Below, in pieces: positions 1 to 7,439 of a DNA stretch of 64,000 nt. Positions within the stretch are counted from its first letter, which is position 1; each line of letters starts with the position of its first letter. Origin of the DNA: Pelagibacteraceae bacterium AG-422-N09 (GTDB lineage Bacteria > Pseudomonadota > Alphaproteobacteria > Pelagibacterales > AG-422-B15); NCBI GenBank assembly GCA_003213515.1, contig QCMV01000001.1, positions 1 to 64,000 on the forward strand. Direction: 5' to 3'. A program made the translations under genes and the position numbers. The notes beneath the pieces are model-generated. The model ran no database searches. It was given only the letters and a program-made list of their open reading frames with translations, and was not told where the DNA came from.

Positions 1-1
1 A

Positions 2-345
2 TATGTTGGAAGAACAAAAAAAGGTGGAAAAGTTTATGTTGATTTTGCACACACGCCTGATGCTCTTAAAAATTCAATTGTAGAGTCAAAAAAGTTAGAG
101 ACATCAAACGTACATGTTTTATTTGGTTGCGGTGGAAATAGAGATAGAAAAAAAAGACCGCTAATGGGTAAAATAGCTTCAAAATACGCTGATAAAGCAA
201 CAGTCACAGATGATAATCCAAGATATGAAAATCCAGCAAGGATTAGAGAGGAAGTGATTGGAAATTTAAAAAACATATCTGAAATTGGTAATAGAAAACT
301 AGCCATAAAAGAAGCTATTAGCGAATTAAAAAGAGGTGATCATGT
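2..345 (+). pseudogene. murE: MurE C-terminal fragment (UDP-MurNAc-tripeptide synthetase), inverted relative to its N-terminal part; junction at ~333-344
   Basis: Frame 2 reads YVGRTKKGGKVYVDFAHTPDALKNSI...VLFGCGGNRDRKKRPLMGKIASKYADKATVTDDNPRYENPARIREEV...AISELKRGD, typical of the MurE C-terminal domain. The frame is open to the left window edge and family similarity ends after KRGD. Confidence 0.85.
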
Positions 346-929
346 GATATATTTGTTAATGCACAAACATCAAAATTCATTCCATAAAATCTACTTTGAT
401 GTAAGCCATGACTTGATGCTTCCATAACTAAATATTTTATTTTTTTTTGACCTATTTTTTTTAATTGTTTTGAAAGATCAATCGGTTCGGGTGAAGTAAG
501 GTTATATTTATTTCTCTTTAATACAGAGTTTCCTAAAGTACCTATAGTAGCTACACTCTTACCTGAAATTCTCAGTAAATAACTTAAAAAATATGCAACA
601 GATGTTTTTCCATTAGTTCCAGTTATTGCAATTTTTTTTTCAATATTATTCTTGTTTATTTCAAATGCTAATAGCGATAGTGATTTTCTAATATCTTTAG
701 CCTTTATCACTGTCGTATTCTTTGGATATCTTTTTTTACTATATGATGGAACTACAATAGCTGCAGCACCCTTTTCAATTGCTTGATTTATGAACCTAGA
801 TCCATCTATTTCATTTCCAGGGATTGCAAAAAAAATATTTCCTTTTTTTATCGATCTCGAGTCTGATGAGACTCCATTAAATTTTATCTTCTTTGAATTA
901 ATTTCTTCTAGAAGGGAGTGATTTGGCAT
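333..929 (-). pseudogene. murE: MurE N-terminal fragment, truncated after the TNISHDHL motif
   Basis: Minus ORF with VSSDSRSIKKGNIFFAIPG, ITGTNGKTSVAYF P-loop, TSPEPIDL and MEASSHGL...ALTNISHDHL; ends abruptly at the junction. Directly downstream of ftsI. Confidence 0.88.
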
Positions 930-932
930 TTA

Positions 933-2708
933 TCAAAGAGAGGTATTAATGAGCATGTTTTCATTAGGTATGTATCTTGCCTTTATGTCCAAAATAGGAC
1001 TTACTCTATCAATAATTTGTCTTGAAACTCTTGCCGCATTCCACCCAGCATCACTCCAGTTCCAAGTATTATATGGCTCTCCATATTCTCTATTAATCCC
1101 TTTCGGGTCGTCTAATGAGATAAGAACTACATACTTTGGCTTGTGTATGGGTAGTACCGATATAAAAGTAGTTAACTTTTCTCTTGTGTAGGATTTTTTG
1201 TCTATCTTGTGAGATGTGCCTGTCTTACCTCCAACCAAATATTTAAACTTACCTTCTTCTGTGTATGCTTTATCAGCATCCTTTTTAAAGGCTTCTTTGG
1301 CAGTGCCTTTTGCAACAACTTGGCTTAAAAGGTAACGCATAATTTCACTGGTCTCTTCTGAAAAAATTTGATGTTCATATCGTTTATCATCTCCTAATTT
1401 TGTAAGAGATGGCTTAATTAAATATCCTCCATTTACTACAGCTGATGTAGCTACAGCCAAATGCAATGGTGATACTGAAAGGCCATAACCGTAAGAGATT
1501 GACTCTGTATTAACTGTTCTCCATGGGTCAGGAACAATTGGAATTGCTTTTTCTGGTATTCCAATATTTACTTGACGAAGTAATCCAAGTTGAGACAAAT
1601 ATTCTTGCTGTAATTCCTTACCAATATCTCTAATCATTTTAATCGTTCCAATATTTGATGACTCAACAAATATTTCTTCAACAGAGCACATTTTTATCTC
1701 ACAAGGCCTGTGAACATCCTCTACACGGTGCTTTCCAATATAAATGTGATTTTCAATTTCATACTTTGTATTTGGCTGAAAGATTTTTTCCTCAATTCCC
1801 ATTGCTGCAGTAAATATTTTCATCACTGAACCAAACTCATATACACCTAATGTGTTTTTGTTGAACTTATCATTGTCATTCGCATTTTTAGTATTGGGAT
1901 CAAAATCTGGAAGTGATGTCATGGCAAGAATTTCTCCATTATTGACATTCATTATGAGTCCTGAGCCACCAGTTGCTTTATATAGTTTCATAGCAGCTAG
2001 TATTTCATCGCGAACAATGTGTTGTATTCTTGTATCTAAAGATAATATCAAATCATTATTTTCTTCATTTTGAAGAAACTTATTAAAAGATTTTTCTAGT
2101 CCAGATACGCCTGCATTATCAATGTCAACTTTTCCAACTAAATGACTAAAAAGTTCACTGTGAAGATATTTTCTTTTATAAGCATCTCTGAATTCAATTC
2201 CAGTCTCACCTAAATCTATGTACTTTTGTAATTCTAAGGGTTCAACATTTCGATCAAGCCAGAAGAATTTTTTTTCAGATACCAATTTATCAAGATCAGT
2301 TGCGGAAAACCTATTATTTATTGCTGAGACTTTACTAATAAATTTTTTCTTATCGTATATAGCTTTTGGATTTACAGATATATGGGATGTTAATAAATTT
2401 GCTGTAAGAGAGGTATTATTCCTATCTAGAATATTTCCCCTTTTTGTCTCAACATTCTCAACAAAATAATTTCCCTTTTCGGTGTAAAGTAAATTAATTT
2501 CTATCATTTTGATTGTTACTGCCAAAAACAAACTACTAAAAACAATCGCTGACAATATTAAACGATTATTTATTTTAAGGGCAAAATTACTCTTTAAAGA
2601 CTTTAATCTCTCAAAAGCAAACTTTTCTTTATTGTATCTGTGTGTAAATGAAAAACTTTTTTGATATATATCAATTTTCTTTCGGCCAGTATTCCGCTTT
2701 TTTTTCAC
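933..2708 (-). CDS. ftsI: Peptidoglycan D,D-transpeptidase FtsI (PBP3)
   Basis: N-terminal TM, RGNILDRN, SxxK motif (GSVMK), SSN motif, KTG motif (GGKTGTSHK); dcw context. Confidence 0.95.
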   Translation of the reverse strand: MKKKRNTGRKKIDIYQKSFSFTHRYNKEKFAFERLKSLKSNFALKINNRLILSAIVFSSLFLAVTIKMIEINLLYTEKGNYFVENVETKRGNILDRNNTSLTANLLTSHISVNPKAIYDKKKFISKVSAINNRFSATDLDKLVSEKKFFWLDRNVEPLELQKYIDLGETGIEFRDAYKRKYLHSELFSHLVGKVDIDNAGVSGLEKSFNKFLQNEENNDLILSLDTRIQHIVRDEILAAMKLYKATGGSGLIMNVNNGEILAMTSLPDFDPNTKNANDNDKFNKNTLGVYEFGSVMKIFTAAMGIEEKIFQPNTKYEIENHIYIGKHRVEDVHRPCEIKMCSVEEIFVESSNIGTIKMIRDIGKELQQEYLSQLGLLRQVNIGIPEKAIPIVPDPWRTVNTESISYGYGLSVSPLHLAVATSAVVNGGYLIKPSLTKLGDDKRYEHQIFSEETSEIMRYLLSQVVAKGTAKEAFKKDADKAYTEEGKFKYLVGGKTGTSHKIDKKSYTREKLTTFISVLPIHKPKYVVLISLDDPKGINREYGEPYNTWNWSDAGWNAARVSRQIIDRVSPILDIKARYIPNENMLINTSL

Positions 2709-2713
2709 GGAAT

Positions 2714-3058
2714 TTACCTTGCCGAATTTTGATTAATTGTTGATGTATCATAAACTGTAATAACATCATTAAATAATTCATTATTTTGTTCAATATCTTC
2801 ATTATCTAATACAACGAAATACTTTTCGTAATCATTAGTAATAATCATTTCTGAAATTTTTTTAATATTCATTGGCGAAACCAAATGGTCCCATTCAATT
2901 TTATAAAGCTCATTTATCTTTTGTTCTTCTCGAAGTGTTAATTCAAGTTCATTAATATACTTTTGCTTTTCGGCTGAAATGTTTTTTATAACCATAATTG
3001 CAAGTAATCCGGTTAACAAAACAGCAACGGACAATATTTTAAAAAAAGCACTTATCAT
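2714..3058 (-). CDS. ftsL: Cell division protein FtsL-like
   Basis: Short single-TM coiled-coil protein between rsmH and ftsI; 4-bp overlap with rsmH. Confidence 0.75.
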   Translation of the reverse strand: MISAFFKILSVAVLLTGLLAIMVIKNISAEKQKYINELELTLREEQKINELYKIEWDHLVSPMNIKKISEMIITNDYEKYFVVLDNEDIEQNNELFNDVITVYDTSTINQNSAR

Positions 3059-3975
3059 AATTCAAATCCTAACTCAGATATTGGAATATAATTAAAGTTT
3101 AATTGCTTACGCTTAATGACTCTAAGCTTTGCTGAACGAGATCTTGGATTACTTAATATTTCCTTGGAAGATGGTTTTATTAATTTGATCTTTTTATTTC
3201 TTAAACAAACTTTGTTTGTAAAATTCTTTACCAACCTGTCCTCAATTGAATGAAATGTGACTACGCATATCTTCCCATTCGCTCTTAGTAAATTAAATGC
3301 TTGGTTGAGACCAGAATGAAGCTCTTGTATTTCATTATTAATAAAAATTCTAATAGCCTGGAATGTTTTCGTTGCAGGATGTTTTTTGTAATATTTTGAA
3401 GGAAACGATTTTTTAATTATTTCTGCAAGCTCGATCGTACTCTCAATTTTTTTTTGAGTTCTGTGCTTCTCTATGTTTCTTGCAATTTTTCTTGAATTTC
3501 TCTCATCTCCGTAATGATAGATGATATCAGCAAGCTCATCTTTGTCCTTTTTATTTATTAAGTCTGAAGCTGTTTGGCCATCCTGACTCATTCTCATATC
3601 TAGGGGGCCATCTTGCATGAATGAAAACCCTCTATTTGCATCATCTAGTTGCATTGATGAAACTCCTATATCAAATACGAAACCGTTAATTTCTTTTTCT
3701 TTTGTTTCTTTGGAAATTTTATCAATCTGACTAAATTTAGAATGTACAAAAGAAAACCGACTGCCGTACTTTTTTTTAAATCTTTCAGCTTGTTTTTTGA
3801 CTGTTGGATCTCTGTCGATTGCAATGATTTTGCATTCACAACTTTGAAGGATTCTCTCTGTATATCCTCCATATCCAAATGTTGCATCGATGTATGTTTC
3901 ATTATCTTTTGGCCCTAATTGTTCAATAACCTCTTCAATAAGAACTGGCCTGTGGCCAAGTTCTTTATTTGTCAT
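3055..3975 (-). CDS. rsmH: 16S rRNA (cytosine(1402)-N(4))-methyltransferase RsmH (MraW)
   Basis: [68 protein letters not shown]. Confidence 0.96.
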
Positions 3976-5660
3976 TTACTCTGTCTTCTCAAGAAAGATG
4001 GAATTTCAAGTAAATCTTGATCAGTTTCTAATTCTTCATCGGCTTCAATAGAATTATGTGTTTCATCCAGTTGATGCACGTTTTGGTCACTAAATAAGTC
4101 AGGTGAATCGCTATCTGAATTTTCCCTATTTGCATGTATTAAATCCATAATGCTTTGAGAAGACTCTGTCTGCTCCATTGCCGCCTCTTCAATTGGCTCT
4201 GGATCAACTTCAGGCTCTGCAATCATTTCTGGTTCAGAAACTGGCTCTGACTCCATTTCTGGCTCAGCAATTACTTCTTCTTCAGCAACATCAATTGCCG
4301 CCTCTTCAATTGGCTCTGGATCAACTTCAGGCTCTGCAATCATTTCTGGTTCAGAAACTGGCTCTGACTCCATTTCTGGCTCAGCAATTACTTCTTCTTC
4401 AGCAACTTCCATTACTGGCTCTTCAATTGGCTCTGGATCAACTTCAGGCTCTGCAATCGTTTCTTGTTCAGAAGTTTCCTCTTCAAAAATTGTTGTTTCA
4501 TCATTCATTGACCCTGAATCTTTTTCATCTGAGCCATCCATGTACATATATGGATCAGAATTTTTTTGGATTTCATCTTCTTGATTAGCTGAAGCATGAA
4601 TAGATCCTGTTCCATTCACTTGAGCTGCTGGAATTGATGAAACTGTTGAACTATTATTTACTTGTAAATCAACTATTCTCTTTGAAGGCTTGTCATGAGG
4701 TTCTAACCCAGTTGCAACAACAGAAACTCTAGCTTTGCCCTCAAGATTTTCGTCAAAGATTGATCCAACAATTACATCTGCATCAGGGTGAACTTGTTCT
4801 CTTATCTCATTTGTAATTTTATCAACCTCATGCAATGTTAAGTCAGTTCCACCAGTTATGTTGATCAATAATCCTTTGGCTCCGTCCAAAGAGTAGTCAT
4901 CAAGCAGTGGATTTGTAACTGCATTGTGAGCACATTCTATTGCTCTATTGTCGCCAGACGCTTCACCTGTACCCATCATTGCGCGTCCCATATTATTCAT
5001 GATTGTCTTTACATCAGCAAAGTCTAAGTTGATTAATCCCGGTACGACCATCAAATCGGTAATACTTCTTACTCCTGCATGCAAAACATCATCCGCCATT
5101 GAAAATGCATCGGCAAATGTTGTTTTCTCATCAGCAACTTTAAATAAATTTTGGTTTGGAATAACAATTGTTGTATCTACTAGATGTTCTAACTCTTTTA
5201 GCCCTTGCTCAGCAATTCTCATTCTTCCAGCACCTTCAAATTGAAATGGCTTAGTAACAACTGCTACAGTAAGTATGCCCAATTCTCTTGCAACACGAGC
5301 TATCACTGGAGCAGCGCCTGTACCAGTGCCACCACCCATACCAGCAGTAATGAAAAGCATGTTTGTGCCTTCAAGTCTTTCCATTATTTCGTGTTTAGTT
5401 TCATCGGCTGAGGATTTACCAATATCAGGATGAGAACCAGCTCCCAATCCTTTAGTAACCTGAACACCCAATTGCATTTTTGAGTCACTTAATGATTTAG
5501 ACAGAGCTTGTGCGTCTGTATTGGCTGCAACAAATTCAACTCCCGATAATCCGGATTGAATCATATTGTTAATTGCATTGCCGCCTGCACCACCGACTCC
5601 AAATACTGTTATCTTTGGCTTAAGCTCTTTTAGTTCTGGAACACTTAAATTTAAAACCAT
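3972..5660 (-). CDS. ftsZ: Cell division GTPase FtsZ with a long acidic repeat-containing linker
   Basis: [26 protein letters not shown] tubulin signature, C-terminal conserved peptide [10 protein letters not shown]. Confidence 0.97.
4177..4475 (-). repeat. Tandem 117-bp (39-aa) repeat in the ftsZ linker: two near-identical full units plus a partial third
   Basis: Units begin at 4177, 4294 and 4411 (plus coordinates), exactly 117 bp apart. Units 1 and 2 differ only in the last few bases. Protein unit is [37 protein letters not shown]. Confidence 0.95.
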
Positions 5661-5685
5661 GAAATTATCCTCCTATTTTCATTAG

Positions 5686-6138
5686 TTATTCATTTTTCCA
5701 TTTGAGATTTGCTAAATTATTTTTTGCATTATCACTTTTTTCTTTTTTGAAAGAGTCATAAGTATCAGGATTCCACATTTGAAATGTTTCTCCCATACCA
5801 ACGAAAGAAACGTAGTCAATAATACCTGCAATAGAGATTAGTCCATCAGGTATGATGACTCTGCCTTCTTGATCAAAATGAATTTGATGGCTGTCAGCAA
5901 AAATAGAAGTTGAAAAAGTATTTCTTTCTTCACTGAAGGGACCGGATGCTTCTATCGCATCACTGATCTTTTGCATTCTATTAGCGGTACATCCTTCAAT
6001 TGATTTAAGAGTCGGTGAAGGATAACAAATCATGCCCTTCAATCCGTTTTGTTCTAAGACACTTCTAAAAGAAGATGGAACAGAAACACGACCTTTTTTG
6101 TCAATGCGATTTATGTACGTAGATAGAAACAATGCCAT
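5686..6138 (-). CDS. mraZ: Transcriptional regulator MraZ (start likely at the internal Met, MALFLSTYINRIDKKGRV)
   Basis: INRIDKKGRVSVPSSFR and DQEGRVIIPDGL, the double SpoVT/AbrB-type motif; first gene of the dcw segment. Confidence 0.92.
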   Translation of the reverse strand: MALFLSTYINRIDKKGRVSVPSSFRSVLEQNGLKGMICYPSPTLKSIEGCTANRMQKISDAIEASGPFSEERNTFSTSIFADSHQIHFDQEGRVIIPDGLISIAGIIDYVSFVGMGETFQMWNPDTYDSFKKEKSDNAKNNLANLKWKNE

Positions 6139-6186
6139 TTTTAAAAAAAAGTTAGTTACTAAAATAATCAACAAAATTACCTCATT

Positions 6187-6230: not shown

Positions 6231-6333
6231 TAATGTCTATACCTATTTATGATATTTCTTTTATAATCAATTATTTAACTAATTTTATACATTAGCCAAT
6301 ATCTATAAACTATTGAAAATAAACGACAAATAT

Positions 6334-6692
6334 TGCCAGATAATTTATAAGCCGGGTTCTGTAATTTTTTTACAAAAAACCGATAACTATTCATCTAGCT
6401 CAATTGTTACCAATTGAGTCGTGCGATCAACCCGGTTACAGCCAAGACAAGCCAATGTAACCCTATTAGATCTTGCTCCCAGTGGGGTTTACCATGCCTT
6501 TTTTGTTACCAAAAAAGCGGTGAGCTCTTACCTCACCTTTTCACCCTTACCCTTAAAATTTCAATTAGGGCGGTTTATTTTCTGCGGCACTTTCCCTAGA
6601 GTTGCCTCCGCCGGGAATTACCCGGCACTGTTGCCTTGTGGAGCCCGGACTTTCCTCTTGATCAAGCCAAGCAGTTATCCAATTATCTGGCA
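6334..6692 (-). ncRNA. rnpB: RNase P RNA, bacterial type A
   Basis: Minus strand contains GAGGAAAGTCCGGGCTCC near the 5' end and ACAGAACCCGGCTTAT near the 3' end; termini form a 12-bp P1 helix (TGCCAGATAATT / AATTATCTGGCA). Confidence 0.95.
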
Positions 6693-6722
6693 GAATGGGT
6701 TTATCCTCTTAAAAGATATTGG

Positions 6723-7439
6723 TCAAGCCTCTCTTTGAAGAGATATAAGTTCTCTCAGATATCCCAACAATTTGTGCTTAACTGTAAAATCCTCTAACTC
6801 TTCAGGGCAATAATGACTTTCAAAAGCATAAATAACTTGTAGTGTTTCTTTATCCATTAAACTAGATAAAGTAATTTTATATCCAAAATCTCTTAGTAAC
6901 TGTTGTAAAGATTTAATCTCTGAAGCTCTAAGCGGCGTTTTAGAATTATTTTTCTTTGGTAAAATTACTAAGCCTTTTGCAGCTAACTTATGCCAAGGGA
7001 ATAAATATCCTGGATCTATCTTTCGCAGCGGGGCAACATCTGAGTGGCCCAAAACATTACTTTTTTTAATTTTGTATTTTGTCTGTAGACTTTCGATTAA
7101 TGAAATAAGTGATTTTATCTGAGATAACTTGAATTTATGATATCCAAATTCTTGGCCTTTATTTTGTAATTCTATTCCAATAGACTTTGAGTTTAAATTT
7201 ATATCTTTTTTCCAATTAGATATGCCTGCATGCCAAGCAATATCTTTATCATTTACGAGTTGGGTAATTTTTCCTCCTTCATTAATAAAATAATGTGAGC
7301 TCACTTTATGTTTTTTTGATCTAAGTCTTTTAATTGAATCCTGCGCTGTTTTCATTCCTGTATAATGTATGATTATATATTTTATATTTCTTCTTTTTAC
7401 TTGTTCAAAATTTGGGGATTTTAGATATTCAATTTTCAT
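6723..7439 (-). CDS. N-acetylmuramoyl-L-alanine amidase (amidase_2, AmpD/AmiD-like)
   Basis: IIIHYTGMKTAQDSIKRL, SSHYFINEGGKITQLV, GHSDVAPLRKIDPGYLFPW. Confidence 0.88.
   Translation of the reverse strand: MKIEYLKSPNFEQVKRRNIKYIIIHYTGMKTAQDSIKRLRSKKHKVSSHYFINEGGKITQLVNDKDIAWHAGISNWKKDINLNSKSIGIELQNKGQEFGYHKFKLSQIKSLISLIESLQTKYKIKKSNVLGHSDVAPLRKIDPGYLFPWHKLAAKGLVILPKKNNSKTPLRASEIKSLQQLLRDFGYKITLSSLMDKETLQVIYAFESHYCPEELEDFTVKHKLLGYLRELISLQREA

Follow-up and report, generated by a model that had tools for sequence, protein, structure and literature searches.

Back-to-back halves of murE at a contig end of a Pelagibacteraceae draft genome: almost certainly an amplification or assembly artefact

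The rearrangements that DNA amplification introduces into single-cell genomes have been characterized by Lasken and Stockwell (2007; PMC1855051), who described 475 chimeric junctions from one amplified cell of E. coli. Of these chimeras, 85% were inverted; in 337 of the 406 inverted junctions, the joined segments lay within 10 kb of each other, and 93.5% of these proximal joins had complementary bases, as many as 21, at the priming site. The combination of a proximal inversion, an intervening deletion and a short complementarity is what phi29 multiple displacement amplification, or MDA, typically produces (PMC1855051). Here we compare with this pattern a locus at the margin of the draft genome of Pelagibacteraceae bacterium AG-422-N09, which consists of 27 contigs totalling 1.22 Mb, with an estimated completeness of 84.9%. 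The window that we have analysed comprises bases 1–64000 of contig C1 (134,335 bases), namely its left end; since base 1 of the window is the first base of C1, there is no sequence further to the left.

The minus strand of C1 carries a run of dcw genes in the order RNase P RNA, mraZ, ftsZ, rsmH, ftsL, ftsI and the start of murE, the gene for UDP-MurNAc-tripeptide synthetase (table 1). Positions 334–3100 of the window are collinear with the relatives G004, G012 and G015, showing 97–98% identity (98.1% for G004). At the contig start, murE appears in two oppositely oriented halves that meet tail to tail, as the earlier note had described, profile matches and collinear DNA alignments agreeing on this layout. 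The minus-strand ORF at 318–929, with 203 open codons, matches the N-terminus of MurE (NF001124, 7.7e-55, profile positions 21–212 of 500); the genuine gene start within it corresponds to murE codons 1–198 plus two bases and is 94–98% identical in nucleotides to its counterparts in eleven relatives, including ten that possess a complete murE of 477 amino acids. The plus-strand frame at 2–427 matches the C-terminal domain of the same protein (NF001124, 1e-40, profile positions 348–463 of 500), and its DNA aligns by blastn with ten relatives ungapped and at 91–99% identity (97.6% for G004, on the opposite strand). The murE coordinates of the halves are identical against all ten relatives with the complete gene, and these alignments bear out the further claim that the middle of MurE is absent at the junction: nt 597–986 (390 nt) are missing between the halves, while the 3' end of the gene, nt 1327–1434, is absent from C1. 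The inverted join spans about 730 bp of a relative's murE, its segments lying less than 10 kb apart.

Table 1. Features at the left end of contig C1 (window coordinates)
Feature	Position	Strand	Remarks
murE C-terminal part, inverted, truncated by contig start	1..340	+	murE nt 987-1326; NCBIfam match
Junction	334..340		7-bp AGGTGAT (ATCACCT on the other strand), common to both half alignments
murE N-terminal part, genuine gene start	334..929	-	murE nt 1-596; native site downstream of ftsI
ftsI (peptidoglycan transpeptidase)	933..2708	-	intact, collinear with relatives; family match
ftsZ	3972..6174	-	stretch with ftsZ between mraZ and rsmH
FtsZ C-terminal linker repeat	4177..4473	-	117-bp (39-residue) acidic repeat, 2.5 copies
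RNase P RNA (class A)	6332..6690	-	immediately upstream of mraZ, same strand

Other aspects of this cluster deserve mention in their own right. The ORFs called at 6414–6738, within the region of the RNase P RNA, are spurious. The gene for FtsZ is positioned at the head, not at the end, of the dcw cluster, is the sole copy of ftsZ found and is arranged alike in G004. The open frame of FtsZ differs in length among congeners (527, 550 and 566 codons), with near-identical cores, and the contigs of G002, G006, G010, G011 and G020 appear to break at about the linker repeat of this protein. Members of this genus encode MurE and MurF separately, in genes of 477 and 454 codons; in a related family of the same order, most genomes have one frame of about 950 codons with two matches, that is, a MurE-MurF fusion (L023:6368–9162).

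To place the split gene in its taxonomic context, we used the N-terminal half of murE as a query against 38 related genomes. Ten congeners have an uninterrupted and collinear gene of 477 codons, with 92–99% protein and 91–99% nucleotide identity; in one further congener, G014, murE is cut by that genome's own contig end, and the more distant congeners with matches have mostly an intact murE of 478 codons. The inverted arrangement, which the earlier note had suggested looking for in other genomes, is absent from all the relatives with matches among the 38 searched. Because near-identical genomes hold one ordinary and intact murE at this place, the back-to-back halves almost certainly arose as an artefact when the DNA was amplified or assembled and are not a real feature.

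Nor does the draft contain an intact murE elsewhere, a possibility that had also been raised and that we reject after two different queries. A full-length MurE from a relative matches only the two fragments on C1, besides finding a weak Mur-ligase paralogue on contig C8, at the murD position of the cluster. A 3-kb segment of a relative encompassing ftsI, murE and murF matches C1:334–1267 (+), C1:1–340 (−) and the right end of C8 (70260–70765). The latter contig stops within murF, the gene next to murE, and therefore C8 and C1 are adjacent in the real chromosome, the break falling inside the dcw cluster. Moreover, C8 is collinear with G004 until inside murF, 0.8 kb past the inverted fragment, so the junction sits in an assembly gap; the uncovered sequence between C8 and C1 amounts to about 1.2 kb, in stretches of 0.83 kb and 0.39 kb on either side of the 340-bp inverted fragment.

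Could a segment of about 730 bp within the cell's murE, nt 597–1326 of the relatives' gene, nevertheless have been truly inverted between short inverted repeats? The pieces follow one another as nt 596 and then nt 1326 down to 987, exactly as expected at the first breakpoint of such an event; short inverted repeats do occur at the ends of the segment, and the contig would end before the second breakpoint, inside the would-be inverted segment. This second breakpoint, however, is not found in the draft, where the region falls in the assembly gap, and murE is intact in ten out of ten relatives that have the complete gene. Since murE is normally essential, with the draft holding no second copy, and since no relative shares the arrangement, we consider a real inversion very improbable. 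If it were real, it would inactivate murE unless it were reversible; that this cell had a real, possibly reversible inversion switching off the synthesis of peptidoglycan precursors is a reading to which we give practically no credence.

The sequence at the junction needs to be considered separately for its two sides. The earlier note had pointed to the palindrome TGATCA, which is indeed present at 337–342, within CATGATCACC (the HDH codons). Because every relative with a complete murE has CATGATCACC (10 of 10), the palindrome was not created by the junction; it consists of native murE codons, so its role as a junction signature does not hold and it is ruled out as the cause of the join. The KRGD codons of the plus-strand half read AAAAGAGGCGAT in most relatives and AAAAGAGGTGAT in G001, the C-terminal allele being GGCGAT in nine of the ten relatives with complete murE and GGTGAT in G001. 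The T in the GGTGAT of the window may be the cell's own allele or may derive from the N-terminal half: the microhomology amounts to 3 bp (CCT/AGG) if the cell's allele is GGCGAT and to 7 bp, as assembled, if it is GGTGAT, and both lengths fall within the 2–21 nt of inverted MDA chimeras. In 200,000 simulated trials of random inverted joins within the A+T-rich murE, at least 7 junction bases were in common in 0.16% of cases and at least 3 in 8%, so that sharing to this extent is rarely a chance outcome, which speaks for the chimera. The murE of a relative contains 279 inverted pairs of 7-mers, and therefore suitable priming sites are plentiful; since inverted 7-mers are so common in this gene, the inverted repeats at the join do not point to a recombination site, which further weakens the case for a real inversion.

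Additional information comes from the other contig ends of the draft. Mutual comparison of 54 ends revealed no inverted terminal duplication, with C26 and C27 being uninformative, as they are stop-free in every frame and were consequently read as masked; the matches of C24 and C25 arise because these contigs are so short that their two ends overlap. We then picked five other ends for their similar layout (both ends of C4 and the right ends of C6, C17 and C25) and found no inversion in any of them against up to four relatives. Hence, the comparison does not flag contig ends indiscriminately. That none of these five ends is chimeric was counted against an origin in MDA.

How, then, did murE come to be split? 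The best explanation, in which we have high confidence, is an inverted chimera that arose while the genome of a single cell was amplified by phi29 MDA and that the assembly kept as a contig end. The locus combines segments of one gene in opposite orientation, the deletion of 390 nt, a short complementarity and absence in relatives. The earlier note had favoured an inverted microhomology chimera over a real disruption, and this preference is sustained by the intact murE of the relatives, the lack of a second copy, the geometry of the join and its position, 340 bp from the contig end. Library ligation, PCR template switching or an assembler mis-join, instead of phi29, could also have produced the chimera, because such sources too yield inverted joins near contig ends. 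However, close spacing, inverted polarity, deletion and short complementarity together form the typical MDA pattern, and an overlap of 7 bp is below what an ordinary k-mer mis-join needs. A chimera of these other origins is possible, fits less closely than one produced by MDA and has, in our judgement, only a slim chance of being the right account.

The geometry of the junction, the intact gene in the relatives and the gap to C8 are direct observations, whereas the amplification of a single cell and the mechanism of priming are inferred. The small, incomplete and low-contamination draft does no more than suggest a single-cell genome. In the MDA chimera that we favour, a nascent strand copying murE would halt at about nt 596 and its 3' end would be displaced by branch migration. 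About 730 bp away within murE, this end could then pair through 3–7 complementary bases (ATCACCT) with a displaced strand of opposite polarity and prime anew there, whence extension would run back from nt 1326 to nt 987. Given a region without other coverage, the assembler would retain the chimera as the contig terminus, and the cell itself would have an ordinary murE followed by murF.

The split of murE is a genuine sequence observation that holds no biological novelty. It carries a caution, namely that draft contig ends may hold inverted chimeras mimicking gene disruptions; the case of murE was settled by near-identical genomes, without reads, and any annotation of C1 should have bases 1–333 trimmed off or flagged. 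Compared with murE in the dcw cluster of its genus, both fragments are 91–99% identical and the N-terminal one keeps its native position beside ftsI, whereas the relatives have one continuous gene of 477 codons and C1 has two inverted fragments lacking the middle and the 3' end. Compared with inverted MDA chimeras, which are known from individual reads whereas the murE case is known from an assembled contig end alone, the likeness extends to the inverted second segment, the intervening deletion, the spacing below 10 kb and the few complementary bases at the junction.
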